The notes beneath the pieces were generated by a model. The model saw only the letters and a program-made list of their open reading frames with translations, had not been told where the DNA came from and did no database searches. This document shows positions 5,605 through 23,884 of a DNA stretch of 64,000 bases, one piece after another (position 1 is the stretch's first letter; each line of letters starts with the position of its first letter). Origin of the DNA: a virus. The stretch is from the IMG/VR virus record IMGVR_UViG_3300038424_000251, positions 62,001-126,000 of that record. One strand, 5' to 3'. Both the position numbers and the translations under genes were made by a program.

Positions 5605-5610
5605 TATAAT
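5605..5610 (+). promoter_or_regulatory. -10-like TATAAT 7 bases before the ATG at 5618
   Basis: A perfect TATAAT with 7 bases to the start codon of the sugar dehydrase gene. No good -35 lies 16-18 bases upstream. It fits the leaderless arrangement seen elsewhere in the window but is weaker alone. Confidence 0.35.
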
Positions 5611-5617
5611 TTAAAAT

Positions 5618-6916
5618 ATGAATCAACGTTCTCCGAAAGACAAAATAAGGGATTTAATATCAGATTTAAAAAAAGATGCATCTATACCTCAATTTTGTTA
5701 TAATATAAATAGCAAAAATGATTCTGTGTATTATGGTGGCCCATTATATGATGACGAAGAATTGACAGAAGCTATATACACATTATTATTTGGAAAGTGG
5801 TTAGTATCAGGTGAAAATGTGAACAAATTTGAGAAAGAGTTTTCTGTTTATATAAATTTAAAATATTCTCTCATGGTAAATTCTGGAAGTTCTGCTAACT
5901 TACTTATTGTTTTAACTCTTAAAAAATATCTCGGATGGAAAGACAATGATGAAATAATAGTATCATCTGTTGGATTTCCTACTACTGTAAATCCAATTAT
6001 TCAATCTAATTTAAAACCTGTCTTTTGTGATATAGAATTAGATACATTGAATTTTGACATAAATGAGATAAAGAAAAAAATAAACAAAAAAACAAAGGCT
6101 ATCATAGTCTCCCCTGTATTGGGAAATCCACCCAATATGACAGAATTGAAATCTTTGTGTAAAAATCATGATATCATAATGATAATGGATGGGTGTGACT
6201 CTTTGGGAAGTAAGTGGGATGATAAACATTTGGCTGAGTATGGTATAATGTCCAGTTGTTCTTTTTATCCAGCACACCATATCACGACAGGAGAAGGAGG
6301 TATGATATCAACCAATAATGAAGAGTTGATTAATTTATCAAGAAGTTTAGCTTGGTGGGGAAGAGGATGTCATTGTGTTGGTCCTGCTAATTTATTAAAA
6401 AATGGAAGTTGTGGAAGTAGATTTTCAAATTGGATACCAGAATTAGACTTTATAACAGACCATAGATATTTTTATCCCAATATAGGATACAATCTAAAAC
6501 CATTAGATTTACAGGGTGCAATTGGATTAGCTCAATTGAAAAAACTAAATTATATACACTCCAAAAGAACAGAATATAAGAATAGAATTCAAAAAATTTT
6601 ATCAAGGGTAAAAAAATTATCATTTCCAAAGCAATATAATAATGCATATGTATCTTGGTTTGGAGTTCCAATAATTTGTGAATCGTCAGGTGTAAAAGAA
6701 AGATTTGTGAAGTATTTGGAATCTAATAGAATACAGACTAGAAATTATTTTGCAGGTAATTTACTTTTGCATCCTGCATATAAGCATTTAGATAACTGGA
6801 AATTGTATCCGAATGCTAATATGGTATTGGAAAAAATATTTTTCATAGGATGTTCTCCAACTATGACAGACAAAAATATAGATTACATTGAAGAAGTAAT
6901 ATCAAAATATGAATAA
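5618..6916 (+). CDS. CDP-4-keto-6-deoxyglucose 3-dehydrase-like (E1, RfbH/DdhC type)
   Basis: 432 residues, a member of the DegT/DnrJ/StrS fold. In place of the PLP-binding lysine it has FYPAHHITTGEGG with His220, the hallmark of E1-type 3-dehydrases that use pyridoxamine phosphate. The [2Fe-2S] ligands are also visible: Cys193 (DGCDSLG), Cys251 and Cys253 (GCHC), and Cys265. The spacing C-X57-C-X1-C matches Yersinia E1; the last interval is 11 rather than 7 residues. These enzymes remove the C3 hydroxyl in CDP-3,6-dideoxyhexose synthesis. The next gene could reduce the product. No E3 reductase is seen, so electrons would have to come from elsewhere. Confidence 0.85.
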   Translation: MNQRSPKDKIRDLISDLKKDASIPQFCYNINSKNDSVYYGGPLYDDEELTEAIYTLLFGKWLVSGENVNKFEKEFSVYINLKYSLMVNSGSSANLLIVLTLKKYLGWKDNDEIIVSSVGFPTTVNPIIQSNLKPVFCDIELDTLNFDINEIKKKINKKTKAIIVSPVLGNPPNMTELKSLCKNHDIIMIMDGCDSLGSKWDDKHLAEYGIMSSCSFYPAHHITTGEGGMISTNNEELINLSRSLAWWGRGCHCVGPANLLKNGSCGSRFSNWIPELDFITDHRYFYPNIGYNLKPLDLQGAIGLAQLKKLNYIHSKRTEYKNRIQKILSRVKKLSFPKQYNNAYVSWFGVPIICESSGVKERFVKYLESNRIQTRNYFAGNLLLHPAYKHLDNWKLYPNANMVLEKIFFIGCSPTMTDKNIDYIEEVISKYE

Positions 6917-7751
6917 AATAGATTTATTTGGTGGAACAGGTTTTATAGGTTCTCATTTTAAGAAGTTATATGGTGATGATGTGTATGTTCATCCAAGAAA
7001 TTCTGCCAAACCAGTTACAGACAACGTGTTATACATGATAAGTACCACCGACAATTATAATGTATATAGCGACTTGATGGTGGATATTGATACAAATTTG
7101 ACTCACTTATTAAGAGTTTTGGATTATTATAGAGATGATGAATCATTAAGAAAAAATTCTATTTTTAATTTTGTAAGTTCGTGGTTTGTGTATGGAAAAA
7201 TTTATGATTTACCTGCTAAAGAAACGTCTATTTGTAATCCCAAAGGATTTTATTCCATAACTAAAAAATGCGCAGAAGATTTATTAATATCTTTTTGTGA
7301 AACATATGATTTGAAGTACAGAATTTTTAGATTATGTAATGTCTATGGTATAGGTGATAAAGACGTATCGAAAAGAAAAAATGCTTTACAATACTTAATA
7401 AATGAAATAAAAAATAATAGACCTATACAATTATATTATGGTGGGAATTTTATCAGGGATTATATGGATGGAGATGATATTTGTAGAGCTATTAATTTGT
7501 GTATGAACGTTTCTAATGTCAATCAAATCATAAACATAGGAAGCGGAATACCACAAAATTTTGGAGAAATTATACATTCTGTAGTTAAAGAAACCGGTTC
7601 GACCAGTTTAATAACTGCTATAGACCCTTCTGATTTCCACAAGCATGTTCAAGTGAAAGATATGTATTTAGATATTACTAAACTTAAAAATTTGGGATTT
7701 ATACAACAGGTCAAAATATTTGATGGCATTAAAAAGATTTTAAATTCGTAA
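6909..7751 (+). CDS. NAD(P)-dependent sugar reductase/epimerase (extended SDR)
   Basis: 280 residues. The Rossmann signature GGTGFIGSHF is at residues 8-17, the catalytic YSITKK (YxxxK) at about 116-121, and the typical late motif FIRDYMDGDDICRAI at about 182-196. It overlaps the E1-type dehydrase by 8 bases. By analogy with RfbJ/RfbS it could reduce the 4-keto group to finish a CDP-3,6-dideoxyhexose such as abequose or paratose, but the exact sugar cannot be read from the sequence. It ends convergently with, and overlapping, the long minus-strand glycan operon. Confidence 0.75.
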   Translation: MNKIDLFGGTGFIGSHFKKLYGDDVYVHPRNSAKPVTDNVLYMISTTDNYNVYSDLMVDIDTNLTHLLRVLDYYRDDESLRKNSIFNFVSSWFVYGKIYDLPAKETSICNPKGFYSITKKCAEDLLISFCETYDLKYRIFRLCNVYGIGDKDVSKRKNALQYLINEIKNNRPIQLYYGGNFIRDYMDGDDICRAINLCMNVSNVNQIINIGSGIPQNFGEIIHSVVKETGSTSLITAIDPSDFHKHVQVKDMYLDITKLKNLGFIQQVKIFDGIKKILNS

Positions 7752-8496
7752 CAGGGTCATGTTTTGGATAACTACCCCATTTATATTTGAAATACTCAAA
7801 TCCTTCTACTTCTTTTTTTCTTGTATTTTCTGCTTGTTCAGATGACCTAGTTCCAATACTGACAAAATGGTAAAAATTACAGTTGTAATTTCTATTCAAA
7901 TTCATTTTACATAAATTACATTTTAAGAAAAAGTCCCAATCAACAACGTTTCCACTAGGATATGTTTCATCCCAACCACCAACTTTTAGATAATTGGTTT
8001 TGGACATTAAAAACGGCAATGTTGACCCGCAAGAATCAACTTTATTTTGTCGCATTGTAGATTCCAATCTATAAAAATTATTCAAGTCAAATGTTTTTGC
8101 ATTTGTTCCAAAATCATATTTTATGAACTGCTTGAACATACTGTCATAAGGCTCTATTTGATTTGGACTTACAACATCGGTTTCCTTGTTGAAATTCTCT
8201 AGCAAAATTTTATCCCATTCTTTAGGGAATACGTTATCATCGTTGACAACTAAAATATTTTCAAAAGATGCATTATATACTCCAAAATTGGTTGACTTTG
8301 ATTGTCCATAATTACTTTCAAATATAATTGGAATTATTTGACTCTCATACTTTTTCAATATAGAATTGTTTATATCCAACGTTCCATCTATAACTACAAT
8401 TATCTCATTCTTGTAAATTTGGCTGCTTAATGCAGACCTGATGCACAAATCAAGATAATCGGGTTCTTTGTATGTTGGAATTATTACAGAAATCAT
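7729..8496 (-). CDS. Family 2 glycosyltransferase
   Basis: 255 residues with a GT-A fold. The N-terminus is a classic GT2 start, ISVIIPTYKEPDYLDLCIRS, with IIVVIDGT next and the metal/nucleotide motif VVNDDNVFP at about 92-100. A later VDWDFFLKCNL segment matches the GT2 acceptor-side acidic motif. It is the last gene of the long minus-strand operon and overlaps the upstream gene by 4 bases. Donor and acceptor are unknown. Confidence 0.8.
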   Translation of the reverse strand: MISVIIPTYKEPDYLDLCIRSALSSQIYKNEIIVVIDGTLDINNSILKKYESQIIPIIFESNYGQSKSTNFGVYNASFENILVVNDDNVFPKEWDKILLENFNKETDVVSPNQIEPYDSMFKQFIKYDFGTNAKTFDLNNFYRLESTMRQNKVDSCGSTLPFLMSKTNYLKVGGWDETYPSGNVVDWDFFLKCNLCKMNLNRNYNCNFYHFVSIGTRSSEQAENTRKKEVEGFEYFKYKWGSYPKHDPVTNLKSF

Positions 8497-9200
8497 AAAA
8501 TCTCATTGTCCCAATTTATTAGTGGCGCTAACCAAGGCAAATCGCCATGTGTGGAATAACTTGGAATCGGTGTTATCAATGTTCTTCCTTTGTCTCTTAA
8601 TTTCAAGAACATTCTGAAATCTTCGGGATAAGAACCAACTGTCCATTTTCTAAGTATAGGTTCATCTTCTCGTAATGTCTTTAATTTAGCTGCAAATGTC
8701 ATTGTTGTGGAATTGGTAAGTTTCCAATGACAGGATTTGCTTAGAAATACTTTGGTTATTTCACCACCATTTTCAATAAAAGGATTTCCACCTTTATCAC
8801 CATTCAAATATTTGTCAGGATGGTCATATAAGGAAATATAATCTGTACCTATATCAAATCCTTCTTCCATTATTGACTTTGAATTTTTACGGTGGATATA
8901 ATCATTTTCAACAAAATAGATTATTTCATCATCATTTTTTTGTTTTAATGCTAAATCTAACACTCTGTTGAAAGTCTGTGCGCTACTGCCCAAATTTGAT
9001 GAAATAATTGTATCTGCTGAAACTATATCTTGGACCATTTTATAAGTCTCATCGCAAACTCTATCAACTAAAATAAAAAAATTGTTGAGTTTATTATTGA
9101 GGAAATTTCGCTTAAAATTTTCGAGACAATTTTTATTGTTTATAAGGGGATGTTTTATTTTCTTATAACCAGCATCACTTAATCTGTAAAATATTATCAT
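8493..9200 (-). CDS. Glycosyltransferase-like protein (GT-A type)
   Basis: 235 residues. The central FVENDYIHR looks like a degenerate DxD sugar-nucleotide motif, preceded by SSAQTFNRVLDLAL, which is typical of viral and bacterial GT-A enzymes that handle a nucleotide sugar. The C-terminus has conserved-looking STHGDLPWLAPLINW. Family assignment rests mainly on these motifs and on operon context, being flanked by a GT2 and an FkbM methyltransferase. Confidence 0.55.
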   Translation of the reverse strand: MIIFYRLSDAGYKKIKHPLINNKNCLENFKRNFLNNKLNNFFILVDRVCDETYKMVQDIVSADTIISSNLGSSAQTFNRVLDLALKQKNDDEIIYFVENDYIHRKNSKSIMEEGFDIGTDYISLYDHPDKYLNGDKGGNPFIENGGEITKVFLSKSCHWKLTNSTTMTFAAKLKTLREDEPILRKWTVGSYPEDFRMFLKLRDKGRTLITPIPSYSTHGDLPWLAPLINWDNEIL

Positions 9201-9816
9201 AACTTTTATTTTTAAATATCAAATCTTCCTGTAATAGTTCACCATTCAAATAATGAGAATAAGGACTATCAACTACTATAAAATTTATATATTTCAAATA
9301 ATTTACAACCTCATCTTTTAATGGAGCGCCTTCGTTACAACTTTTTAAGGAAACTTCCAACAATAGATATTTTGATTTTTTTATGGTGTTTATTCCACCT
9401 TTTATGATATCTAATTCAGAACCTTGAGTATCTATTTTTATCAAATCGTATGTATCAGTTACAAGATTATCTAATATATTCATTGGAAGATATATAATTT
9501 CACAATTTTTATCATTAAAAAATTCTGATATTTCTCTATAAATTGAATTTCCTGTTGAACCTCTTTCTGTTTTATTGATATAGAATTTAACACTTGATTT
9601 CTCTTTATCTCCTAATAATGCTATTATGTAATGAATGCCCATACTCTTTAAAGCGTTTTCAAAAAAAGGATTAGCTTCAATCATTGTAAAACTAGCAGCC
9701 GGCCATACAGTTTTACATAAATTTGTAAACCATCCATTACTAGCACCAATATCCAAAATAGTATTTGGTGTAAAATTGAATTTATTTTTTATACCGTGTA
9801 AAGCACTTAAATCCAT
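9175..9816 (-). CDS. FkbM-family SAM-dependent methyltransferase
   Basis: 213 residues from the ATG at 9816 (a TTG at 9837 is possible). The SAM-binding motif is ILDIGASNGWFTNL near the N-terminus, followed by FTMIEANPFFENALK. The FkbM hallmark YDLIKIDTQGSELDIIKGG is at about 125-145. FkbM enzymes O-methylate sugars or polyketides. In this operon a glycan hydroxyl is the likely acceptor, perhaps as a chain-terminating cap. Confidence 0.8.
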   Translation of the reverse strand: MDLSALHGIKNKFNFTPNTILDIGASNGWFTNLCKTVWPAASFTMIEANPFFENALKSMGIHYIIALLGDKEKSSVKFYINKTERGSTGNSIYREISEFFNDKNCEIIYLPMNILDNLVTDTYDLIKIDTQGSELDIIKGGINTIKKSKYLLLEVSLKSCNEGAPLKDEVVNYLKYINFIVVDSPYSHYLNGELLQEDLIFKNKSYDNILQIK

Positions 9817-9817
9817 A

Positions 9818-10765
9818 TTATACTTTTGTTTTATCAATCACATATTTTACTATATGTTCTGTTGTTAAATTATTTGTTAAATATGTATGTAGTTTATCAT
9901 TGATTTCGTGATATTTGTCATAATCAATTTCTATATCATTGAAAGTATTCAAGTCAAAATTTGTTATAGCATTTTTATCATTATATATGAATTTATTTTC
10001 TAATACAGTTTTATCAAATCCTTTGAATATATTAAAAACTTCTTCCAATGTTTTCTTAGGAAGCTTTTGTAAACTTTGTTTTGGACAATGTTTTATGTCT
10101 ATAAACAGTGGAATACATTTATTCATTATTATTTCATAATGACGAAGAGAATCCCAAGATGCTTTCTTCCAAGTATATCCAAACATAGATTGTTGGTAAT
10201 CTTCATAATAAGATTTTTCATCATTAAATACTAATGTTTCTATTATTCCCGGAATATTAGTTCCTATTAATTTATTTTTCTGTAATTCTCCTATATATAT
10301 TTTTTCTTTTGGTATTGAAAAATTTATAGGAATGACATCTTTTGTCTCATTTTCTATAAATGTTTTAAAATACAAACCTTTATTTAGTAGAGAATAATTC
10401 ACATCTGATGTATCACTACCATCTATAAAAACTATTTTATTTTTATCATAACAAGAAAATACTAAATCAATCAAATCCAAATTTCTATAAATTGCTCCAT
10501 AAATAACCAAGTCAAAATATTTATTTTTTATTTTATTTTCTATGTCTGTCCTATCTATGTTGTCGGATTTTTTCACAGTTCCACATAAAGTAAAACCTCT
10601 TCCATGAAAAGTATTAATTAGTGAAGATTTATTTATGTCATCATACATATACCATTGCGGATATAAGTCTATTATATCATCACCAAATAGAGATTTCAAT
10701 CCATGAAACAGAGAATCTGCCATGAAATCACTCATATGAAATTTAAAGATGTATAATATTTTCAT
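9818..10765 (-). CDS. Putative glycosyltransferase (GT-B-like)
   Basis: 315 residues. The N-terminus, ILYIFKFHMSDFMADSLFHG, resembles the start of a GT-B domain. A conserved-looking block, FGYTWKKASWDSLRHYEIIM followed by NKCIPLFIDI, at about 195-225 resembles the nucleotide-sugar side of exostosin- or CAP10-like transferases, where such a segment is followed by a choice-of-position loop. It sits between sugar genes. The enzyme class is inferred; the family is not certain. Confidence 0.5.
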   Translation of the reverse strand: MKILYIFKFHMSDFMADSLFHGLKSLFGDDIIDLYPQWYMYDDINKSSLINTFHGRGFTLCGTVKKSDNIDRTDIENKIKNKYFDLVIYGAIYRNLDLIDLVFSCYDKNKIVFIDGSDTSDVNYSLLNKGLYFKTFIENETKDVIPINFSIPKEKIYIGELQKNKLIGTNIPGIIETLVFNDEKSYYEDYQQSMFGYTWKKASWDSLRHYEIIMNKCIPLFIDIKHCPKQSLQKLPKKTLEEVFNIFKGFDKTVLENKFIYNDKNAITNFDLNTFNDIEIDYDKYHEINDKLHTYLTNNLTTEHIVKYVIDKTKV

Positions 10766-10791
10766 TATAATTTACATTATATAGCATATTT

Positions 10792-11514
10792 TTATTTCCT
10801 GTATAGTTTAAATTCTGTTATACTTTGCCATTCTGTTAAGTCACCGTAATATTTTTTGAACATATCTGTTGGCACATGTTTATAACTTGAGTCGTTAAAT
10901 GGGATAGTGTATGTATAGTTTCCCCACTTTTTTGTAACATATTCAGCATTGTATGTTCTGGTTTCTGATGGAATCGGTGAGTTAAGATAAGTGGATGAAT
11001 TTCCGTTAAAGTAATGGGGTATGTTTAAACTGATTACTTTTACATCATTTAATTTACAACGGTATTTATAATCATTATCCTCACATCCAGCAAATAAAAA
11101 ATTTTCATCAAATCTTCCTACGGTGTTCCATGTATCTTTGTGTATTCCATATAAAGAGAATTCAAAAGAATTATCATAGGTTCCACATAATACTTTAGGA
11201 GATGTTTGTATGGTTATTTCATTTAAAATTTCTTCTGAAAATCTAGCATCTTCTTCTCCTATTATTATCTTATCTAACTTCATTGTATTAAATGCTATAT
11301 CACAGATTAAATTCCAACCAGCAGAACAGCAAATTTTCTTTGTGGTAAGATAGATGACATTATTTTTAATGTAATCAGGTATTTTTTGTTGGCCATTATC
11401 TATGAAGTACATTTTTGTATTTGGATTATCTTCATGTTTATACCATTCACAAAAATAGTCCACGGCATTATATCCTAATATGAATAAATTATTTTTTATA
11501 TTAAATTCTCTCAT
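10792..11514 (-). CDS. GT2-like glycosyltransferase
   Basis: 240 residues, taking the ATG at 11514 (MREFNIKN) as start; a TTG lies 5 codons upstream. The sequence has IIIGEEDARFS as a probable nucleotide-sugar/metal motif and a C-terminal VGRFDENFLFAGCEDNDYKY block, which matches the GT2/GT7 acceptor motif (G.FDE.F...EDxD). The N-terminal domain is short compared with a standard GT2. It overlaps the upstream methyltransferase gene. Confidence 0.65.
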   Translation of the reverse strand: MREFNIKNNLFILGYNAVDYFCEWYKHEDNPNTKMYFIDNGQQKIPDYIKNNVIYLTTKKICCSAGWNLICDIAFNTMKLDKIIIGEEDARFSEEILNEITIQTSPKVLCGTYDNSFEFSLYGIHKDTWNTVGRFDENFLFAGCEDNDYKYRCKLNDVKVISLNIPHYFNGNSSTYLNSPIPSETRTYNAEYVTKKWGNYTYTIPFNDSSYKHVPTDMFKKYYGDLTEWQSITEFKLYRK

Positions 11515-12133
11515 AACATGCCCAAGCAACTTGCTTAAAATCTGTTTTTGTATATTCTTTCAGATTATTTTTGGTTATAATATCTTTTATATTCTCATAT
11601 CTTATTTCTATCCAACCCCAACCTGAATATGGACCATAATCATGAGCCATTATAACATCTTGTGACTTTAGGAAATCTGCAAAATGATTAAATTCTTTTG
11701 GTTTGTCGCCACCGTCACACAATAAGCATACTTTTTTATTTGATGCTAGTATATCTTTTATGTATTTAATCGATGCTTCGGAAAAACAATCGTCATAAAT
11801 GCCTTTTATATTATTTTTATCAAAATATTCACGCAATCTATCTGAATATTCTTTACTCATATCTGTCATTTTTGTGGTATCATATAAATGGATATCAAAT
11901 GTATGAATATTATACGAAAGATTATGCTTTCTCTTTATTTCATTTAATATTATCGTAAGACCGCCTTTATTGGTTCCAATTTCTATTACTTCATCAAATT
12001 TCTTATCTATCATCAATTTCTCAAAATAATCAATTACAATAAACATTTGAGAAGCAATCCATTCTTCTTTGGAGTTTTTGATTGTAAAACCAAATCCTCC
12101 TCCAGTTCCCCATTTACTAATAATTTCTTCCAT
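11501..12133 (-). CDS. SAM-dependent methyltransferase (CmcI/TylF-like)
   Basis: 210 residues. FDEVIEIGTNKGGLTIIL at about 45-62 is a class I motif I. IHTFDIHLYD is a motif II acidic site and KVCLLCDGGDK a motif IV region. HDYGPYSGWGWIEI near the C-terminus resembles metal-dependent CmcI/TylF-type O-methyltransferases. It sits between a GT9 and a GT2-like gene, so it probably modifies a sugar in the same glycan. Confidence 0.7.
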   Translation of the reverse strand: MEEIISKWGTGGGFGFTIKNSKEEWIASQMFIVIDYFEKLMIDKKFDEVIEIGTNKGGLTIILNEIKRKHNLSYNIHTFDIHLYDTTKMTDMSKEYSDRLREYFDKNNIKGIYDDCFSEASIKYIKDILASNKKVCLLCDGGDKPKEFNHFADFLKSQDVIMAHDYGPYSGWGWIEIRYENIKDIITKNNLKEYTKTDFKQVAWACYERI

Positions 12134-12143
12134 AAAATATATT

Positions 12144-13037
12144 TTATTTCATTATTTTTTTAATTTCATCAATAACTTCATCGTCTGTTAAATACGGGTC
12201 CAATACTATATGCCTTTTATCTTTAAAATAATAAATAGGTCCAAGTTTCGGTTCTTTTATTTTTTTTATCACTCCATTCCATCCGTATAGTTGAAGGACA
12301 AAATCGCCCGTTGTAATAGTTCTGCATCCAACGCCACAAGCCATATTACACAGACCGCCTTCTGCTCCAAGGAAAACATCACAATGCTTCATCAAAGAGC
12401 ACTCAAATAAAAGAGATTTCTGATTGCCATCTGTAATGGAAATAGTAGATACTTGTGGTGTTTTTGGGGGAAACCCTATTTCAACAAAATTGAATGTGTC
12501 AGATAAACAAGATAAAATATAGTTTGTATTTCTGTGTTTTCCACCATAACCGAAATCAGGAACATCAATTCCTAATTCATATTCTTTTTTTGTGAATAGA
12601 AAACTTCTTTCAGACCAATTGGCAGCATGTGCTACCACTTTTTTACCATTCTTTCTTAGTTCATCTATAATGTTTTTTGCTACTTCATCATAGGATGAGT
12701 CTGTATAGACAGTAAATTCTGTATCTGGATTTTTTACACTAGCCCATTTTTGGCACTCTAATGGTGGTGGTTCTAAGAAAGAAAACGGTTTCATGTTTAT
12801 TACTTCATCATAATTTTCTAATATGTCTTCGGGAACAGTTGGATATGGCGTTGGAAAAGGAAGTAATCTTACTTTGTCTATGTATGGATTATTAGATAAG
12901 AGTCTGTAAATTTGAGGGAAGGCTATCACATACTCTATTTCATCAAATTTCTTTTCTTCTTTTAATTTTTTAGCAATTGAACTCTGGAAAAAGATATCTC
13001 CAAAATATCCAAAAGTTATTATCAAACATTTATGCAT
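12144..13037 (-). CDS. GT9-like glycosyltransferase (heptosyltransferase fold)
   Basis: 297 residues. The N-terminal LIITFGYFGDIFFQSSIAKK corresponds to the first strand and loop of ADP-heptose:LPS transferases. C-terminal FLGAEGGLCNMACGVGCRTI matches the GT9 donor-site motif (G.EGG..H.A...G). GT9 enzymes add heptose or related sugars to lipid-linked glycans at the inner membrane. The acceptor here is unknown. Its start overlaps the end of the DUF6165 gene. Confidence 0.75.
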   Translation of the reverse strand: MHKCLIITFGYFGDIFFQSSIAKKLKEEKKFDEIEYVIAFPQIYRLLSNNPYIDKVRLLPFPTPYPTVPEDILENYDEVINMKPFSFLEPPPLECQKWASVKNPDTEFTVYTDSSYDEVAKNIIDELRKNGKKVVAHAANWSERSFLFTKKEYELGIDVPDFGYGGKHRNTNYILSCLSDTFNFVEIGFPPKTPQVSTISITDGNQKSLLFECSLMKHCDVFLGAEGGLCNMACGVGCRTITTGDFVLQLYGWNGVIKKIKEPKLGPIYYFKDKRHIVLDPYLTDDEVIDEIKKIMK

Positions 13038-13395
13038 ATGACTTTTCTTCTATTAGATTAGAATTGGTTTTTTCGTTGATTACTCTTTTTATCCATGATC
13101 TTGCATCATTATTGATATAAATTGTTCTAGCTATTTCAATAAATTCTTTATCAAATAATTGTTGGTCTTCCTTATATCGTATTTTATCTTCGGCATCCCA
13201 TAATATTTTGTTTACTGTTTTTAACGAAACTAAGAAAGAATTAATAGTAGGGTCTTCTAAATTAAAAATGGATTTTAATTGTTCTAGTTCTTTCAATACA
13301 TTTTTTCGTTTTTCTTCGTCGGTTATATTCTCTAATTTAATCATTAAAATAGATATTTTGTCAAGTATTTCTCCATTTGATACTTCAATCTTCAT
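13030..13395 (-). CDS. DUF6165-family protein
   Basis: 121 residues, all-helical. The N-terminus, EVSNGEILDKISILMIKLEN, followed by ITDEEKRKNVLKEL, matches the DUF6165 signature (SxGE..DK.tILeIK...). This family of unknown function usually lies inside sugar-transfer operons, as here between a GT7-like and a GT9-like gene, so it is probably an accessory or scaffold for glycosylation rather than an enzyme. Confidence 0.7.
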   Translation of the reverse strand: MKIEVSNGEILDKISILMIKLENITDEEKRKNVLKELEQLKSIFNLEDPTINSFLVSLKTVNKILWDAEDKIRYKEDQQLFDKEFIEIARTIYINNDARSWIKRVINEKTNSNLIEEKSYA

Positions 13396-13399
13396 AAAA

Positions 13400-14119
13400 T
13401 TAAAATTTTATATTTATATTGTTTATTTTTAACCACTTAACGTTTTCCAAATCTGATTCAAATTTAGAAACATTACAAGAAGAATCATTAATGCCTTTCT
13501 TCCGTGAATATTCTCTATTTGCAAGAATAGCTCTATTTCGTAATTCATCGGGGTCATTTTGTGGTGGTTCGCTATTTGGATGATATAGAGAGTAAAACAA
13601 ACCTTCCTTGTTTCTATGCCATGCGTAACCATTTTCTATCAGTCTGTCTCTTGTATCCATATCGGAACATCCCCAACCAATAAAACATGGATTTAATCCA
13701 TTCATCTTATAGAATACTTTTCTACTAAATATGAATACCCCACCATAATGTTGACTAGCATCGTATTTAAAATGTTTATATCCACCGGGTATTTTAGATT
13801 CATCTAGTTCTTCACCATTTTCATTTAAAAAAATTACCTGCCTCACGGGTGACATGGGCGTATCTTCGTTTGGTAAATCATAACTTACATTATCAGAAGG
13901 AACATAATCTACATCGTGGAATATTAATGTATCACCAGTGGCAAAAGAGGCACCTGTATTATATAACGCATGCTTCTTGAATATTTCTTTGTCATCTTGT
14001 TCACATATGATTATTTCATAATTTTTATCTTTAAACTTAGTCTGAAATACAGGTAGAATAGTTTGTAAATGTGATTCCCTGTCCCTATATGAAATTATTA
14101 TTGAATATTTGTTATTCAT
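13400..14119 (-). CDS. GT7-like (beta-1,4-galactosyltransferase type) glycosyltransferase
   Basis: 239 residues. YSIIISYRDRESHLQTILP at the start and IFHDVDYVP (DVD at 69-71) match the metal-binding core. YGGVFIFSRKVFYKMNGLNP followed by FIGWGCSDMDTRDRL matches the GGV..F....F...NGf.n...GWG.EDdD block that defines GT7 enzymes in animals and some bacteria. It would use a UDP-hexose. The catalytic acidic pair appears as SDMD rather than EDDD. Confidence 0.75.
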   Translation of the reverse strand: MNNKYSIIISYRDRESHLQTILPVFQTKFKDKNYEIIICEQDDKEIFKKHALYNTGASFATGDTLIFHDVDYVPSDNVSYDLPNEDTPMSPVRQVIFLNENGEELDESKIPGGYKHFKYDASQHYGGVFIFSRKVFYKMNGLNPCFIGWGCSDMDTRDRLIENGYAWHRNKEGLFYSLYHPNSEPPQNDPDELRNRAILANREYSRKKGINDSSCNVSKFESDLENVKWLKINNINIKF

Positions 14120-14969
14120 ACTTCTTGTTTATCATTTTATTCAATTCTTCCACTCTATCATATTGGTGAATAATACAATATGGTTCATTATTATTTCGAC
14201 AATAAATTATACCATCTTTGATTTCAGATATGTTGGACAACTGATTGATTTTTGTTCCTATTTGTAACGCCCAAGAGTCTTTAAAATTAACGACTTGGCA
14301 ATTATCTTTCAAAATACCTCTTGTTAAAATATTAAAAGATGGCTGATCACAATGACCAACCCCAACCGACATCAAATACATTATTAAGCAAAAATCAGGC
14401 ATTAATTTGGCATCACAAGCAAAAGTTCCTACATTACATGCTTCTTCATATTTGAGAAAATATTCATAAAGATATATCCCAAAATTTTTAATTAGGTTAT
14501 CTTTATTCCACGGTTCTGATTCATAAGTTATTCCTTCGGATGGAACCAATATAGGTTTATTACAATTTTTAGTTAACCAATCGCTGGGATTAATTTGAAA
14601 TATTATATCTCTACTATCGGTGTTTATGACATATCTATACAAAATTTGGCACTCTTTCAAATATTGCCATATATGGAACAAACGAACGTTGTGTATCAAC
14701 AAATGTGAATTTTGAGGCGTCACCAAACCACTATGCCATATGAAGTTTGTACCAATTTCATTACCTCTCATATCAGATGTAGGTATTAAGATATTTTTTA
14801 CATTCAATTCCTGTAGTTTCTGAATATATTCGTGATTATTGTTTTCAAAATTGTATGCAAGAATAAGAATATCTCCTGAATAGCTTGTATCTATTAAAGA
14901 GCGAATCCAATTTCGAATTTCACTCCATTGATAATTTTGGCTTATTGTAGTTATTACCAAATCCTTCAT
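14112..14969 (-). CDS. Putative GT-A glycosyltransferase
   Basis: 285 residues. The start, LVITTISQNYQWSEIRNWI, resembles GT-A enzymes that move a sugar-nucleotide loop. RYVINTDSRDIIFQINP at about 113-129 is a probable DxD region, and CDQPSFNILTRG at about 210-221 matches the D-Q acceptor motif (DQ..FN) common in such proteins. It overlaps both neighbours by a few bases. Donor and acceptor are unknown. Confidence 0.6.
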   Translation of the reverse strand: MKDLVITTISQNYQWSEIRNWIRSLIDTSYSGDILILAYNFENNNHEYIQKLQELNVKNILIPTSDMRGNEIGTNFIWHSGLVTPQNSHLLIHNVRLFHIWQYLKECQILYRYVINTDSRDIIFQINPSDWLTKNCNKPILVPSEGITYESEPWNKDNLIKNFGIYLYEYFLKYEEACNVGTFACDAKLMPDFCLIMYLMSVGVGHCDQPSFNILTRGILKDNCQVVNFKDSWALQIGTKINQLSNISEIKDGIIYCRNNNEPYCIIHQYDRVEELNKMINKKYE

Positions 14970-16705
14970 AAACCTAACGATTTTATTATATTGTTTGTAA
15001 TATTTGGATATGATAGATTTTTAATATACCACTCTCTAGCATTTTTAGCAATATAATCTAAAAATTCATTATCCTTGATAACTTTCTTATATTTTTCACA
15101 AATATCTGATGCAAGTTTTTCTGGATTTTTATATCTAAATTTTTCATCAAGTTCTGCATCGACAGAAATATAATGGTAATCAGGTATCAATGGGTCAAAG
15201 TTTTTTGTTATATATTTTGGCCGTATTGTAGGGATACCAATTCCATATAGTTCAATATCTCTGAGGCAATGGTCCCCGCATGTATAACCACCACCAACTC
15301 CCGAACAAAGTATTAATTTGAAACCCAAACATTCATTAATATAACTGTCAAATGGCGTAGGAAAATTTCCAAAATGAAATTCGTGTTTTAATATTTGTGA
15401 TATGATTTTTATATATTCTCTACATTTATATTCTACTTGAGAAGGATTTTCATATATTGACCCTCGCCAACACAAATTATTATTCAAATCGGTTGATTTT
15501 CTATATTGTTGTATTGCTTCATAATTTGTTATTCCAAATTGCCAGAAAGTTTCAGGATACGGACCCGGATTTATATTTTTTCTTAGATTACTATCTTTTA
15601 TTGTTTCATCCCATAATGTTTCATTATATTGTCCTATTGAAGCTCCTATAAAATTTTTTGATTTAGAAAGTTTAACAGATAATGTTGGAGCATCCCCAAA
15701 ATCATAGGTTTTGAAATGCTTTGTATCATTAAATTCAATAATAGATATTGACCCTTGATTTATTAAAACTTCACAGTCATTTTTATAAGTAAACTTATCG
15801 ATTCCGTCCAAATTTTGCCAGTTTACTTTATACCCCTTTTCTTCCAGATGTTCTATAAACTTTCTAGTAGAATATTGGTCAAATCTTTCATCTATTATGC
15901 TTCTATGAAAGGTATATAAGTTTATAATATTAGTTTTTTGATTGTATCTCCTTAATACCTTTTTCCATGTATCTGTTGCTTTTTTTGTTGGGTTATAAAC
16001 AGCCCAAGGCCTACTAAAACCGCAATGTTTACAAAATACAGAGAATGATTCAATCATTTTTTCAAGAGTTACATCCTTCAATTCAGTAGCAACTGGAGGG
16101 AAATTAAATACACGAGATGCAGCTGCAGCATTTGTACACACAAAAAATCCCTCAGAGTTTAAAGCTTGTCCACAATCAACAGGACTATTACATCCGAGGG
16201 TATATGGTTCATCCATATCTTCTGGGCTATAAAGATGTGGTAAATGTTTAATACTCTTTGCTATATATGGTGTCTTATTCACTGTAAAAATTTCGAAGTT
16301 AAATTCTTTAACAATTTCTATTCCTTTTTTTACTTCATCGCCATATCCGCCTGTACACAAAATTAATTTTACATTAGGATTTGATTCTGCTTTATAGTCT
16401 GACAGTATTTTGCATATTTCTCTTAATCGAGGATGTAAAGCAGATTCTCCACCGTGAAGAACCAACCATTCCCATTTCCAATTTAATTTTTTGGAATCAT
16501 CCACTAATTTTTGTATTTGTTCCACGGTCATTTCTTTGTTGGTTGGAGCTTGCCACGTTAAACTTATACAATTTGGACATTTTAGTGTACACCTATAGGT
16601 AAGATGAATTTCTAAACGATTTAGTGTTGGAACACAATTTAATCTAGCAGTTGGTCCCATATAGAAATTGTTTGGTTTCGTTGGGTCATTTGGAATAGCT
16701 GGCAT
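14966..16705 (-). CDS. Radical-SAM domain fused to a glycosyltransferase-like domain
   Basis: 579 residues in two parts. Residues 30-250 are a radical-SAM domain: CTLKCPNC (Cys39, Cys43, Cys46; CxxxCxxC) binds the [4Fe-4S]-SAM centre, HGGESALHP is the GGE motif, and later Cys residues (CGQALNSEGFFVC, CKHCG) look like an auxiliary SPASM-type cluster. Residues about 350-579 resemble a CAP10/GT90- or exostosin-like transferase: CWRGSIYENPSQVEYKCREY, then GVGGGYTCGDHCLRDIELYG and a typical C-terminal helix. Such a fusion could couple a radical modification to sugar transfer. It is unusual, and the substrate is unknown. Confidence 0.7.
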   Translation of the reverse strand: MPAIPNDPTKPNNFYMGPTARLNCVPTLNRLEIHLTYRCTLKCPNCISLTWQAPTNKEMTVEQIQKLVDDSKKLNWKWEWLVLHGGESALHPRLREICKILSDYKAESNPNVKLILCTGGYGDEVKKGIEIVKEFNFEIFTVNKTPYIAKSIKHLPHLYSPEDMDEPYTLGCNSPVDCGQALNSEGFFVCTNAAAASRVFNFPPVATELKDVTLEKMIESFSVFCKHCGFSRPWAVYNPTKKATDTWKKVLRRYNQKTNIINLYTFHRSIIDERFDQYSTRKFIEHLEEKGYKVNWQNLDGIDKFTYKNDCEVLINQGSISIIEFNDTKHFKTYDFGDAPTLSVKLSKSKNFIGASIGQYNETLWDETIKDSNLRKNINPGPYPETFWQFGITNYEAIQQYRKSTDLNNNLCWRGSIYENPSQVEYKCREYIKIISQILKHEFHFGNFPTPFDSYINECLGFKLILCSGVGGGYTCGDHCLRDIELYGIGIPTIRPKYITKNFDPLIPDYHYISVDAELDEKFRYKNPEKLASDICEKYKKVIKDNEFLDYIAKNAREWYIKNLSYPNITNNIIKSLGL

Positions 16706-16725
16706 ATATTTTTTATGTTAAATTT

Positions 16726-17715
16726 TTATGTTAAAAAGATTTCTTTGTATTTATTAATGACATTTTTTTCATTAAATCTATTTGAATACATATCCCAATT
16801 ATTGTTTTCAATAAAGGATTTATTTATACTATATAGTGTATCCATTAGTTCTTGCTCATCTTTATATAAAATTGCTTTCTCTCCTAATATTTCTATATGA
16901 TTTTTATCATATGTTGGGTCGCCCTCTCCTGTCCAAGTAATGACAGGTTTATTAGCAGCAGAAAATTCTCCACATGCAAGTCCAAATGTTTCTCCACCAA
17001 TTCTTCCATGTAACATAACATCACATGAATGAATAAAATTAAATATTTTTTCCTCTGTTCCTTCCCACGGTAAATAAATTATTCTTTCGTGTTCATAAAA
17101 TTTATTTGTAGCTAAAAATATAAAATATATGTCCTTACGAAAATTAAGTATTTGTTTAACACAATTTTGAACAAATGGTACATTAAAACTATCATATCCT
17201 CCATGACGACCAACAATAAGAGAATCGTCTGATATATTAAGTTCCTTTCTCAAATTTTTTGTTGGATTATAATTTTTAACAATATGAGGAACATATAGTG
17301 TTTGCCCAAATTTTCTAGCAAGATATTCTGACACACCAGCATATACAGTACCATGTGGTTCATGCATAAGAAAAACACAATGAACTCCTGATTTGCAATT
17401 GAAAGGAACTATATTGTCATATTGCCCGGATTTTATTAGATGAATAAAATCTATGTTATTTTCTTCTATAATTTTTTCTATTAGATAATTGGTTTCTATT
17501 TGACCTTGTTGAGATTGATTGTGTATTGGTGGTCTGTCATAAACAATAACTTCAAATTGAGATTTGAGTTTGTCTAGCCCCTCATTTTTGTTTTGAAGTG
17601 ATGTGACAAAAATAATATCATGTTTTAGAAGGTTTCTTAATCCTATACCATAATCGTATGAAAGTCTTGTAGAACCTCTACCATCAAATTGATTACAATG
17701 TATTACTATTTTCAT
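16726..17715 (-). CDS. GT4-type glycosyltransferase
   Basis: 329 residues with a GT-B fold. The N-terminus (IVIHCNQFDGRGSTRLSYDY) resembles GT4 acceptor domains. The donor motif is GGETFGLACGEFSAANKPVI, with the E-x7-E pair of retaining GT4 enzymes. VGRHGGYDSFNVPF marks the start of the C-terminal domain. It lies 3 bases before the B12-type radical-SAM gene's end and 20 bases from the radical-SAM fusion. Confidence 0.75.
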   Translation of the reverse strand: MKIVIHCNQFDGRGSTRLSYDYGIGLRNLLKHDIIFVTSLQNKNEGLDKLKSQFEVIVYDRPPIHNQSQQGQIETNYLIEKIIEENNIDFIHLIKSGQYDNIVPFNCKSGVHCVFLMHEPHGTVYAGVSEYLARKFGQTLYVPHIVKNYNPTKNLRKELNISDDSLIVGRHGGYDSFNVPFVQNCVKQILNFRKDIYFIFLATNKFYEHERIIYLPWEGTEEKIFNFIHSCDVMLHGRIGGETFGLACGEFSAANKPVITWTGEGDPTYDKNHIEILGEKAILYKDEQELMDTLYSINKSFIENNNWDMYSNRFNEKNVINKYKEIFLT

Positions 17716-17718
17716 ACT

Positions 17719-19149
17719 TTACCTCAAAACTGAACCTATTACATTATTAAATTTAACTCTAGTGTTGGTTATATTAACATTATTTGTAATATCTAATTTA
17801 AATTTTACTTCCTGCTCAACAATATCCCTACATTTTACTATTTCTTCTGAATTTATAAAATCTGTAAATACATAAGACTTATAATTTCTCGGTATTCCTT
17901 TATAAAATTGTGAAGTTTTTGAATAATCTATATTTATAGAATACAATTTATCTTTTGTTTTCATTGCTTCATATTCCCATACATCATCATATTTGTGCGT
18001 TGATAAATCATAATAATGACTTCCGGGATATGGAGTTATTATAGACAAGTCCATATCTTCTACTTTATTGGTTATTAACCAATCTTTAATATCTAATATT
18101 GATTTTTTTGTTTCACCGGGATGACCACAAGACATCAATGCTTTTATTTTGATATTGTATTTTTTGCATAGACGCACAACATTCTCATTATCTTCTTTAT
18201 TTGATTTTTTGTTTATATTTACCAAAATTCTATCATTGGCAGATTCAAATCCACATAATAACCATCTGAATCCACAAATTTCCATTAAAGAAGCTTGTTC
18301 CTCATTAAAAAGTTCAGATTTTATAAATCCTCTAAAAGTAAATTTTATATTTAATGTATTTTGAAATTCTATAAGTTTTTTTAACAGTAATGGTAGATTC
18401 TTATTGACATTTAATTCATCATCATAAAACATAAATGATTTATAACCATACGTCTTGTATAAGAATTCTACCTCTTTAACTACAGAATCTACTGACCTAT
18501 TTCTGATTTTTCTTAGGTTATTGCTAAATCTTCCACAACAAAAAGCACAATTAAACGGACATCCTAGTTGAGATATTATGCTAGTACAAGGTTCTTCATC
18601 TATAAAAAAATGATATGATTTTAAATCAACCAAATTCCTATTTGAAAATGGTAATTTATCTAATTGAACATTAGTTAAAAACAATCGTTTATCTGTATTA
18701 GCGTCTATAATTTTGTTATCAAACAACTTATTATTTAAATAATTAAGTATTGATAATTCTCCATCTCCAATAAAAATCGTATCAAAATTATTTAACATAT
18801 GATTCTTATTAGTTTCTATTCGTTGATTTTGATTCTGTGGTGAAAAACACGATGTAGCATGTGGACCACCCAATATTTTTTTAACTTCTTGAGGAATATG
18901 TTTAATTAGTTCTATAACGTGTGGATATTGTGGAGTGCTGGATGTAAATCCGATTATATCAAACTTTTTATGATTTAATACAATAGAAAATGTTTCTTCA
19001 TAATTTTCTATTCCTGACAAATCTAAAACATTAATAGGATATTCTGTATAAGTTTTTGTAACATTAGCTACACTAAGTATTCCAAGATGTGGCAGTGACT
19101 TTTCATCAATTAAGAATGGTGACGGTGGTATTACAAATAAGATGTTCAT
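17719..19149 (-). CDS. B12-binding-type radical-SAM enzyme
   Basis: 476 residues. The N-terminal about 130 residues form a B12-binding-like Rossmann domain (FDIIGFTSSTPQYPHV, then ILGGPHATS); the canonical DxHxxG is not obvious, so cobalamin binding is unproved. CPFNCAFC (Cys197, Cys201, Cys204) is the radical-SAM cluster, and FMFYDDELNVNKN and GFESANDRIL follow as in class B radical-SAM enzymes. Relatives methylate or rearrange unactivated carbons in sugars, lipids and antibiotics. In this operon a sugar or lipid carrier is a plausible substrate. Confidence 0.75.
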   Translation of the reverse strand: MNILFVIPPSPFLIDEKSLPHLGILSVANVTKTYTEYPINVLDLSGIENYEETFSIVLNHKKFDIIGFTSSTPQYPHVIELIKHIPQEVKKILGGPHATSCFSPQNQNQRIETNKNHMLNNFDTIFIGDGELSILNYLNNKLFDNKIIDANTDKRLFLTNVQLDKLPFSNRNLVDLKSYHFFIDEEPCTSIISQLGCPFNCAFCCGRFSNNLRKIRNRSVDSVVKEVEFLYKTYGYKSFMFYDDELNVNKNLPLLLKKLIEFQNTLNIKFTFRGFIKSELFNEEQASLMEICGFRWLLCGFESANDRILVNINKKSNKEDNENVVRLCKKYNIKIKALMSCGHPGETKKSILDIKDWLITNKVEDMDLSIITPYPGSHYYDLSTHKYDDVWEYEAMKTKDKLYSINIDYSKTSQFYKGIPRNYKSYVFTDFINSEEIVKCRDIVEQEVKFKLDITNNVNITNTRVKFNNVIGSVLR

Positions 19150-19160
19150 TATTGGATATC

Positions 19161-19832
19161 CTATATTACATTATGACCTTTATTATCTTCAACACTAAAC
19201 AGTTGATTATATCTTAGATTGGTTTGTATTTGTTTTTCTATTGTTTTGTCATGATAAAGAGCTAAATCTTCATCTGCTGGTAGAAAAGCATATTGGTCAT
19301 GGCCAACAATTTTCTCGTGTAATTTTCTATCCCATTTGATTTTTTCTGGAATTCTTTTGTAAATACGACTTTGAAAATCAGGCCAATTAACTATATATCT
19401 GTTTTCACAAAATGGAGAAAATGTTAATCTCCATCCCCATTGTTTAGCATGTTCAGTTGTAACGCCTCTAAAATCATTAATTCTTGGAACGTATATCAAT
19501 TCCACATTTAAATTAGTAGAAATGATGTCCCTCACGTTGAAAATTAATGTTTCAGATGGTAGTTCATCTCCGTCAATTTGGAAAACCCAATCACCAGAAC
19601 ATTTTTCATTTCCATAATTTTTATGTGACCCATAATCATTATTTAGTAAATGCTGAAATACGGTTATTTTTCCCTTAGCTTTGTTTATAATTTTTTTGGT
19701 TTCTTCATTATCTGAAAAATCATCCAATACAACAATTTCATCATCATCAAACTTATTATTTATTAATCGTTCCAAAAGTTTGATTAAAGTATCGGTTTCA
19801 TTATGAATAGTAACTAGGTAAGATATTTTCAT
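19161..19832 (-). CDS. Family 2 glycosyltransferase
   Basis: 223 residues. ISYLVTIHNETDTLIKLLER is a GT2 start, DDEIVVLDDFSDNEET the first acidic motif, WVFQIDGDELP the DxD-like motif, and WDRKLHEKIVGHD a late motif similar to WaaE-like enzymes. It overlaps the upstream GT4 by 4 bases. The likely product is a lipopolysaccharide-core- or glycan-type linkage. Confidence 0.8.
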   Translation of the reverse strand: MKISYLVTIHNETDTLIKLLERLINNKFDDDEIVVLDDFSDNEETKKIINKAKGKITVFQHLLNNDYGSHKNYGNEKCSGDWVFQIDGDELPSETLIFNVRDIISTNLNVELIYVPRINDFRGVTTEHAKQWGWRLTFSPFCENRYIVNWPDFQSRIYKRIPEKIKWDRKLHEKIVGHDQYAFLPADEDLALYHDKTIEKQIQTNLRYNQLFSVEDNKGHNVI

Positions 19833-21217
19833 AGTACCGAGCTAGTTACTGAATTGGTTGCTTCAGAACTTGAACTTGTTATTGGTGAAGGTGGATTTAT
19901 AGGTTTTAATTTCGGTAATTCTATCTTTTTCAATTTTGGTAAAATTAGCTTTTGTTCTGTAGCAAATTTAGGAACGTATTTTTCCAGAAGTTCGTAAAAT
20001 CTTTTATCCATAGCTTGAATAGAAAATTCTTCAACATTTTTTTTGCGAAGTTGTTCAGCTTTTTCAAGGAATGCTTTATAAAAATTAAAACAATTTCTCA
20101 TAGATTCCATTGCTTTAGGATAATCAACTGTAAACCATGATGATTCTTTAATCAGCCATTCATTTGCGCAATCTTCTGGAATTTTTTTTATTTCACCATG
20201 TAATAATTTACAAAATTTTGAGTCAAGAAAATCCAAATGACCGCTCCAATTAGAAGCTAATACAGGTTTACCACTTAAAGTAGAAAGCAATAATGGAAGA
20301 CCAAATCCTTCACCATGAGTGAAAGAAATATGTGCTTTAATCTTTGGATGATTATAGAGAGCATTCATTTCTGATTCCGTTAATTCGCCATATAGAATAT
20401 AAACGTTGGGAAGGTCTTTGGTATTTTTTTCCTGTTCAACTATGGACCTAACGGATTTTAATCGGTTAATCATATCGTGTTTATCCATGTTACATATTGC
20501 TGCTCCATTAGTCTTAATAACCAGAGCTGGTTTTCTTTTAGGTCCCATATTGGAAAATGTTATTAAGAAGGTTTTAATCAAATTACCAATATCTTTTCTG
20601 TCATTAAACAAACCACCACTTGTCCATTGACCAACAAAAAGAAAACAAAAATCTTCTTTAATAACAGACAATTCTTCTTCAATTCTTGGTTCAAATGATT
20701 TGTCATTTCCGTAAATTGATGTATCTGCTCCCCAAAATAACACTTCTATTGGTTTTATAGATTTTAATATTATAGGTGATTGGTTTGGTGCGGCTGGTTT
20801 TTGATATAATGGTTCTTCAAATACACTTTTAGCATGATTTGAAGTAACAATATTAAAATTCATTCTATTCAATCCTTCAATCCAATCTGTTCTGGCTAAG
20901 GTCGTCTCAATACCAGCAGTTATACCAATATTATATTTTGCTGGTGGTTGAAATTCATTAGGAATAGAACACTGAATAAATAATTCTGGTTGTTTAGACA
21001 ATGGTTGTCTAACAATTCTTTTGTATAATTCTTGCTCTGCAGAATCAGTTACATCTGAAAATAAATATTTTCTACTGCAATTACCCCAACGAGTAGGAAC
21101 TATCATCAAGTCATATTTGTCATATCTGAGCAAGCTTTTAGCTAAGGCTAATCCCAGATCACCATAGCCTGACCTAGTCCAAACCGGGGATTGAAAAATA
21201 CATATTGGTTTGTTCAT
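19829..21217 (-). CDS. GT4-type glycosyltransferase with Ser/Pro-rich tail
   Basis: 462 residues. The GT-B fold shows ICIFQSPVWTRSGYGDLGLA at the N-terminus and HGEGFGLPLLLSTLSGKPVL (E-x7-type donor motif) at about 303-322. The last 40 residues are Pro/Lys then Ser/Thr-rich (LKPINPPSPITSSSSEATNS), an unstructured extension not usual in this family. It follows dUTPase by 10 bases and is the first glycosyltransferase of the operon. Confidence 0.75.
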   Translation of the reverse strand: MNKPICIFQSPVWTRSGYGDLGLALAKSLLRYDKYDLMIVPTRWGNCSRKYLFSDVTDSAEQELYKRIVRQPLSKQPELFIQCSIPNEFQPPAKYNIGITAGIETTLARTDWIEGLNRMNFNIVTSNHAKSVFEEPLYQKPAAPNQSPIILKSIKPIEVLFWGADTSIYGNDKSFEPRIEEELSVIKEDFCFLFVGQWTSGGLFNDRKDIGNLIKTFLITFSNMGPKRKPALVIKTNGAAICNMDKHDMINRLKSVRSIVEQEKNTKDLPNVYILYGELTESEMNALYNHPKIKAHISFTHGEGFGLPLLLSTLSGKPVLASNWSGHLDFLDSKFCKLLHGEIKKIPEDCANEWLIKESSWFTVDYPKAMESMRNCFNFYKAFLEKAEQLRKKNVEEFSIQAMDKRFYELLEKYVPKFATEQKLILPKLKKIELPKLKPINPPSPITSSSSEATNSVTSSVL

Positions 21218-21227
21218 ATTATGATAC

Positions 21228-21926
21228 TCATTTCTCTCTTTCTTTTATCATGGTTTCATATTTTTTTGGAGCGGGGATTTCTGATGCTCCTGTTTTCTTC
21301 CATCTATCCATTAAATTATTAGCTTCTTTAGGAGATTCAATTTTTTTTTCTGTAATATGAATAGTATTGGTACCACTGCTGCCAAATCCACCAGAACCAC
21401 GTTCGGTAGTTGTCAAGTCAGCAACTACAACCCAATCAATGGGGTTTGTTACTTCTGACACAAGTTGACCGATTTTGTCGCCTTTTTTGTAGATTTTTTC
21501 CATATTGATTTTACCTCTTAAAGTTTTTCTTCCCCAACCAAATTCTTTTGTATTTACAGTTTCATTAATTGGAACAACACAAGAAAACATGTCATCCGGT
21601 TGCCAGATATATTTAAAACAAAGAAGTAATTCGCCTCTATAATCATTATCAATTAACCCAATACTGTTTGCTAGAATCAAATTATATTTTCTCAAGCTTG
21701 AACGTGGAAAAATAAGCGTATGATAATTTTGATTGTATGTGTCTGTTTGTGGAGAAATGAATAACCCTGTTTTATATTCAATATAATCTATTGATTTCCA
21801 ATCATCTCCGTCTTGTTTTCCAATAATTTTGGGGTCTTCCAATGCTATAACGTCATAGCCAGAAGATTGTGAAGTAGCTGCTTGAGGTATAACTAAACCA
21901 TCTGAATTTTTAACGTGTATTTTCAT
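21228..21926 (-). CDS. dut: dUTP diphosphatase
   Basis: 232 residues, trimeric dUTPase fold. Motif 1 is SGYDVIAL, motif 2 FPRSSLR, motif 3 NSIGLIDNDYRGEL (about 96-109), motif 4 KKGDKIGQLV and motif 5 TERGSGGFGSSG. It hydrolyses dUTP to dUMP, limiting uracil in phage DNA. It is longer than typical (about 150) because of an insert between motifs 3 and 4 and a C-terminal extension after motif 5. It heads the glycan operon from a promoter 7 bases upstream of its ATG. Confidence 0.9.
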   Translation of the reverse strand: MKIHVKNSDGLVIPQAATSQSSGYDVIALEDPKIIGKQDGDDWKSIDYIEYKTGLFISPQTDTYNQNYHTLIFPRSSLRKYNLILANSIGLIDNDYRGELLLCFKYIWQPDDMFSCVVPINETVNTKEFGWGRKTLRGKINMEKIYKKGDKIGQLVSEVTNPIDWVVVADLTTTERGSGGFGSSGTNTIHITEKKIESPKEANNLMDRWKKTGASEIPAPKKYETMIKEREK

Positions 21927-23653: not shown

Positions 23654-23660
23654 AATGATT

Positions 23661-23876: not shown

Positions 23877-23884
23877 ATGTATGT

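Follow-up and report, generated by a model that had tools for sequence, protein, structure and literature searches.

The locus described here raises the question of where a phage that carries so many sugar enzymes would put its glycan. It lies in a window of 64,000 bases, bases 62001–126000 of the 365,299-base virus record IMGVR_UViG_3300038424_000251, a linear record that could be incomplete. The family B DNA polymerase of the record is T4-like, its closest match among GenBank phages being that of Microcystis phage Mel-JY01 (43.7%; deposited as complete), and in a profile search of the whole 365 kb record every match to PF00535, PF00534 and PF01370 was inside the window. The sugar genes form a unit in two parts: a core, consisting of a PD-(D/E)XK exonuclease, two GT4-type glycosyltransferases (GTs) termed GTa (22169) and GTb (19829) and a GT2 (19161), and then a cargo that is exchanged between phages. 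We give an even chance to the reading that these enzymes form a cytoplasmic glycan assembly line on an acceptor carried by the phage, probably a virion protein.

An earlier reading of the letters without database searches (the sequence-only reading) had placed a glycan operon at 7729–21926. The unbroken run that it described was confirmed: from the dUTPase gene (21228–21926) to 7729 there are 16 consecutive open reading frames (ORFs) on the minus strand with gaps of −29 to +26 bases, and all cassette ORFs of the window are intact and tightly packed. The limits proved too narrow. The unit starts with the exonuclease (27962) and the GT4 gene at 22169–23671 and ends near 5166, and the RfbH-like/SDR pair (see below) belongs inside it. 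The exchangeable segment (~5166–19160) was placed by comparison with a related locus, L005, in which the core enzymes are 69–80% identical to those of this phage, yet a different cargo of 7.4 kb lies between the same flanks. These are GT2 on one side and, on the other, homologues of a minus-strand gene (4882–5169; 54%, directly after the cargo) and of a plus-strand gene (4137–4877; 68%, in the same place), both also seen in L006. Since L005 and L006 seem to be separate assemblies of a single virus type, the right flank is based on one case.

131 loci were compared, most of them chosen via GTa or GTb; the counts are of loci and not of independent events, as many contigs are short or related. 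The GTb relatives comprised 35 viral loci, Flavobacterium phage immuto, Mel-JY01 and 14 genome-bin loci, and at least 600 viral stretches were matched by the GTa profile (599 confirmed). GTa and GTb occurred together in 126 of the 131 loci, always in the order GTa–GTb on one strand (126/126) and adjacent in 105. A GT2 was found in 98 loci and the exonuclease in 117; without exception the GT2 followed GTb and the exonuclease preceded GTa, each on the same strand as its neighbour in the core. Immuto and Mel-JY01 are among the loci with this core order. The genome-bin matches to GTb were spread over several phyla including Flavobacteriales, and as a guide to the host they may reflect binning noise.

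Downstream of GT2 the loci differ. Their 679 cargo proteins fell into 319 clusters, 197 of which were singletons. At GTb identities of 65–85% a mean of 26% of the cargo genes was held in common versus 74% of the upstream genes; at 85–96% the values were 31 and 80%. The cargo families across the phages are consistently sugar-related (epimerases/dehydratases, GT2, DegT aminotransferases, methyltransferases, transketolase-type and hexapeptide proteins), and among 150 the cargo Pfams included 19 epimerases, 10 GT2, 6 DegT and many methyltransferases. We are highly confident in reading this as a hypervariable locus for glycan synthesis that has a conserved core. A limited literature search returned no description of an invariant phage GT core with exchangeable cargo.

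The high turnover would also fit a cargo that is mostly passenger DNA from hosts, filling the head without a selected function, a possibility raised for the lipopolysaccharide (LPS) clusters of cyanophages (PMC3037559). This explanation was judged very improbable, given that the cassette ORFs are intact and packed, that gene classes recur in unrelated cargoes and that the GC content of the cassette agrees with that of the rest of the phage. GC3 is alike in cargo and core, and composition is thus no guide to when the cargo was acquired.

In having sugar genes that are exchanged between conserved flanks, the locus is like a Wzx/Wzy O-antigen or capsule locus. The membrane proteins of such loci were not found. 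In a simple hydropathy scan 671 of the 679 cargo proteins had no predicted membrane segment and none had more than one (control, Escherichia coli K-12: Wzx nine segments, Wzy six, soluble enzymes none). Among the same proteins there was no polytopic candidate for a flippase, polymerase or ligase and no GtrA/Gtr-type polytopic membrane protein, the likeness to Gtr being limited to a GtrB-like GT2 domain. The flippase family PF01943 gave no match in the whole record, using a search that was positive in 13 of 14 control genomes. With no polytopic proteins and no PF01943, the locus is therefore neither a Wzx/Wzy pathway nor a Gtr serotype-conversion cassette, whose GtrA, GtrB and Gtr proteins are all membrane-bound, and, having no export machinery, it would have its glycan built on a cytoplasmic acceptor or exported by the host. 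The term 'polymer' used in the sequence-only reading was abandoned, as no polymerase or chain-length protein is present.

Export by the host leads to a real rival, in which the enzymes work on lipid A-core or lipid-linked sugars at the inner face of the membrane, lengthening or capping them, the host then flips and ligates the product and the remodelled surface blocks competing phages. In bacterial LPS synthesis the GTs that build the core are soluble or peripheral proteins, the hypervariability of the cargo also suits surface chemistry, and two GT2s of the window resemble the GtrB PHROG. The published reading of GT genes in pelagimyophages is a change of the host surface (PMC7029224), and LPS gene clusters are present in large T4-like cyanophages (PMC3037559). 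The absence of a flippase, polymerase, ligase and GtrA/Gtr-type protein from the cargo speaks against host-surface remodelling. So does the conservation of the first three GTs in Flavobacterium and Microcystis phages, the hosts of which are expected to differ in their surface glycans; the invariance of these GTs argues for an acceptor brought by the phage. We therefore rate host-surface remodelling as rather unlikely while treating it as a serious competitor.

The two published systems were compared with the locus. The pelagimyophage host recognition cluster (PMC7029224) is likewise a hypervariable island in a T4-like phage and has radical-SAM cassettes and several GTs, but it is in the structural region with tail fibres, whereas the present locus adjoins replication genes, with no tail fibres observed. 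The T4-like cyanophages P-SSM2, S-SSM7 and S-SM2 also carry large sugar gene clusters that enlarge the genome (PMC3037559); these are located near hli or phoH and tRNAs, unlike this locus, and P-SSM2 was not among the tblastn matches to GTa or GTb.

The position of the core bears on a further alternative, in which it is the phage DNA that carries the glycans, in the way that T4 DNA carries glucose; the cargo would determine the sugar and the modification would give resistance to restriction. In many loci the core GTs adjoin replication genes (exonuclease, DNA polymerase and clamp loader), as would suit such a role. DNA hypermodification by phage GTs is known (work cited in PMC12619734), and the window holds another DNA-modification gene, mom (35865–36662; PF25680, 3.5e-54; here and below, values given with profile, PHROG and PDB matches are E values). 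Glycosylation of the T4 type starts from a hydroxymethylated base made by a PF00303 hydroxymethylase, and the searches for a modified-base route gave the opposite indication. No match to PF00303 (thymidylate synthase/hydroxymethylase), PF00145 (cytosine methylase) or PF01702 (TGT) was found in the record, possibly a fragment; the search of the record with PF12851 (TET) was also empty, although the controls gave no match either. Five of eight related records, that of Mel-JY01 among them, are without PF00303. The PF00303 proteins of immuto, L005 and L017 carry the Asn of a true thymidylate synthase (we take Asn to mark this enzyme and Asp to mark dCMP hydroxymethylase) and so are not hydroxymethylases; none was found in this record or in the eight related ones. 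Moreover, phages that share the core modify DNA differently (mom in this phage, 7-deazaguanine pathway genes in immuto), and the glycan enzymes per locus outnumber those that any DNA glycan known to us needs. DNA decoration is less likely than host-surface remodelling and was considered distinctly improbable.

The sequence-only reading had left the role of the glycan open. Taken together, the conserved three-GT core with hypervariable cargo, the absence of export and ligation proteins and the absence of a known 5-hydroxymethyl-base route speak for an acceptor in the cytoplasm, probably a part of the virion, rather than for DNA or for a polymer that is exported. The assembly line would be owned by the virus and would work in the host cytoplasm. 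Soluble GTa, GTb and GT2 would begin a short glycan on an acceptor carried along by the phage, with a virion protein as the likeliest candidate; the exchangeable sugar-nucleotide enzymes, further GTs, methyltransferases and radical-SAM enzymes would then extend and cap it. Phages would exchange the cargo, probably through recombination within the conserved flanks, giving each phage its own glycotype. Gene content, the conserved order, the exchange of cargo and the lack of membrane machinery are observed; the acceptor, the reaction order, which sugars are made and any biological benefit belong to the inferred part of this scheme.

A close parallel for a virion acceptor is found in the chloroviruses, whose own enzymes glycosylate the capsid protein in the cytoplasm, adding a virus-specific decoration to a conserved core (PMC5408694; PMC7826918). 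As in PBCV-1 and NY-2A, there are virus-encoded GTs, a gmd gene and a methyltransferase, with a conserved core and variable decoration. The gene-level features of autonomous virion glycosylation, namely GTs with nucleotide-sugar enzymes, a conserved core with variable decoration and no membrane or secretory machinery, were all found in the phage locus. GTb (19829–21217, minus strand) is below the Pfam cut-off and was assigned to the GT4 type by alignment, motif scan and fold: its AlphaFold2 (AF2) model (pLDDT 84.3) matches GT4-type GT-B enzymes, with chlorovirus NY-2A B736L as the best PDB match (3oy2; 6.3e-16) and giant-virus GTs as the best matches among viral models (5.6e-23). A PDB sequence search with GTb gave nothing useful. 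For GTa (22169–23671, minus strand; phrog_2170, 9.4e-23; PF00534, 1.8e-12) the AF2 model (pLDDT 79.5) gave MshA as the best PDB match (1.8e-16) and B736L as the seventh (3.6e-14). Unlike this phage, the chloroviruses are eukaryotic large DNA viruses in which the glycans are proven on the capsid protein Vp54. Chlorovirus GT genes are not known to be grouped in one operon.

Several points weigh against a virion acceptor. We know of no virion glycan in any phage that carries the core, and the virion protein as acceptor is itself deduced, with confidence evenly divided. The neighbours of the core GTs are replication genes and not structural genes. T4 late promoter words are not enriched (21 versus 15.9 expected, with 21 reached by 12 of 100 shuffles), which makes them uninformative. 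The likeness of GTb to B736L is by fold only (13% identity), and the biochemical function of B736L is itself unknown (PMC5408694). The soluble enzymes could equally fit a host lipid-linked or core glycan that is exported by host proteins. The fuller picture, a widespread T4-related phage lineage with a dedicated glycotype locus in which the fixed three-GT core glycosylates a structural protein in the cytoplasm and cargo operons are exchanged as units to give virion serotypes, as a phage counterpart of giant-virus capsid glycosylation, is accordingly put forward only tentatively, and we hold it slightly more doubtful than not.

The remaining genes of the core region are on the minus strand. The exonuclease (27962–28909; phrog_69 exonuclease, 1.3e-23) is the conserved upstream flank. 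A small protein, possibly of ribbon–helix–helix type (23661–23960; RHH_4, 0.18), precedes GTa, and homologues of 60–70 residues stand directly before GTa in many loci. The dUTPase (PF00692, 2.1e-12) is between GTa and GTb here and otherwise in close relatives only (L003, L004, L008 and L059–L061). GT2 (19161–19832; PF00535, 1.9e-15) is the third conserved GT and the last gene before the cargo. In loci L010–L041 one or two small proteins, one of them Cys4 zinc-ribbon-like, are located between GTb and GT2; these are absent from this phage. The C-terminal tail of GTb (residues 426–462, window 19832–19942), which is of low confidence in the model, contains one or two copies of (K)LPKLKK. This motif, which has the look of a docking motif, is kept in more than 20 GTb relatives; the only close form seen in another protein was at the GTa N-terminus of L023 and L028.

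The cargo of this phage was assigned by profile searches. Between the dUTPase gene and 7729, about ten GTs had been proposed; six were supported, one (GT9-like) was weak and up to four more are possible without a Pfam match, with GTa just outside. Nearest to the core is a B12-binding radical-SAM enzyme of HpnJ/BchE type (17719–19149, minus strand, as are all genes down to 7729; PF04055, 2.7e-21; HpnJ, 1.6e-29, below cut-off), to which a protein of the L003 cargo is related (28%). A GT4-like enzyme follows (16726–17715; PF00534, 4.2e-4 to 1.5e-3, below cut-off), with relatives of 29–32% in the cargo of L017 and L032; the best PDB matches of its profile were weak (TreT, 0.061; B736L, 0.11). Of the GT4 enzymes that had been proposed, 19829 thus gained support from its fold and 16726 stayed weak. 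The second radical-SAM protein (14966–16705) is a fusion of a radical-SAM domain (PF04055, 7.8e-8, residues 35–140) with a C-terminal domain of 340 residues that has no Pfam or PDB match. No relatives of the fusion were found in viral contigs and phages, and its matches in Bacteroidota genomes were confined to the radical-SAM part. Assignment of the C-terminus as a GT90-like domain was dropped, being without Pfam support.

The GT7-type galactosyltransferase (13400–14119; PF02709, 1.8e-12; PF13733, 8.4e-12) and DUF6165 (13030–13395; PF19662, 1.9e-12) were supported by Pfam, as were both radical-SAM proteins and the GT2 enzymes at 19161 and 7729. The possible GT9-like enzyme (12144–13037) aligned weakly with E. 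coli WaaF/C/Q/U in hhalign (E 3.5e-4, probability 37%) over the N-terminal 81 columns. Of the two methyltransferases that had been proposed, the FkbM enzyme (9175–9837; PF05050, 6.8e-13) was supported and the other, a probable class-I methyltransferase (11501–12133), was weak (Methyltransf_23, E 0.17; Methyltransf_24, E 0.2). The protein at 10792–11529 is galactosyltransferase-like (phrog_29879, 1e-13), and that at 8493–9200 recurs in other cassettes (37% relative in L014, 28% in the Mel-JY01 cargo). Two further genes (14112–14969 and 9818–10765), the protein at 8493 and the C-terminal 340 residues of 14966 gave no Pfam match even at E 10, and PDB sequence searches with 12144, 9818, 8493, 10792 and the C-terminus of 14966 returned nothing useful. 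The last minus-strand gene of the run is a GT2 (7729–8496; PF00535, 6.8e-21; 47% to Mel-JY01). Sigma-70-like promoter sites were rejected as candidates, their frequency being not above that of shuffles.

Beyond 7729 two plus-strand genes encode an NAD-dependent epimerase/reductase (SDR; 6909–7751; PF01370, 2.9e-23) and an RfbH/E1-type 3-dehydrase for 3,6-dideoxyhexoses (5618–6916; NF011936, 3.4e-112). The best PDB matches of the latter are the CDP-4-keto-6-deoxyglucose-3-dehydrases 3bcx/3bb8 (5.8e-77), ahead of a ColD-type dehydrase (2.6e-52). When aligned to 3bcx/3bb8 it keeps the His in place of Lys of the PLP fold (AHH) and the Cys cluster (CxC...C), and it misses the RfbH NCBIfam equivalog cut-off (375 versus 423 bits); it belongs to the RfbH family, with an uncertain substrate. 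A second sugar pair (53453–55878, plus strand) consists of a GT4 (53453), which is weak (PF13692, 0.017), and the GDP-mannose 4,6-dehydratase gmd (54730; PF16363, 4.2e-99); the gmd assignment of the sequence-only reading stood. No PF00483 nucleotidyltransferase was found, which leaves the host or gmd as the source of the RfbH substrate. The likely product of 5618, the SDR at 6909 and gmd would be a 3,6-dideoxyhexose, and the glycan of this phage probably includes this sugar and a methyl group. The elaborate deoxy-sugar glycan pathway proposed earlier is well supported by the GTs, the 3-dehydrase, the SDRs, gmd and the FkbM methyltransferase. A signal-peptide-like, FN3-like protein without a PHROG match (55875–56867) directly follows gmd.

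On the far side of the cassette, the flank gene at 4137–4877 matches part of the same PHROG as a DruA-like protein (1384–2724; PF14236, 5.6e-26). The small clamp-loader subunit (3191–3727) is also there; in many relatives it is upstream, near the large subunit, and gene order has therefore changed in this phage. Genes for a patatin-like phospholipase and a papain-family protease are close together at 46753–49074.

The locus had been proposed as a possible new system, which holds in part: T4-like phages with virus-encoded LPS/GT clusters are already known, and so are the chloroviruses and Megavirinae with their autonomous virion glycosylation. In Megavirinae 6–33 nucleotide-sugar and GT genes are likewise clustered between conserved flanks and are clade-specific, and late expression and fibril glycans have been shown; the sections of PMC10117803 consulted describe no equivalent of the invariant three-GT core. 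Moraphages are likewise large phages compared with the T4 group, with predicted Bacteroidota hosts and four GT families in the core genome; neither a fixed GTa–GTb–GT2 order nor swapped cargo is reported in the passages of PMC12619734 consulted. The same paper cites virion glycans on the capsid and tail tube of mycobacteriophages (Freeman 2023). As the locus is present in two cultured phages, immuto (Flavobacterium sp. LMO8) and Mel-JY01 of Microcystis, virion, DNA and host surface are directly testable. To our knowledge the mycobacteriophages, which are actinobacterial, have few GT genes and no large exchangeable cargo has been described for them.

If the proposed assembly line is correct, hundreds of uncultured phages would carry self-made, exchangeable sugar coats, a trait for which giant viruses and some mycobacteriophages are at present the main examples, and this would bear on phage recognition and on competition between phages.

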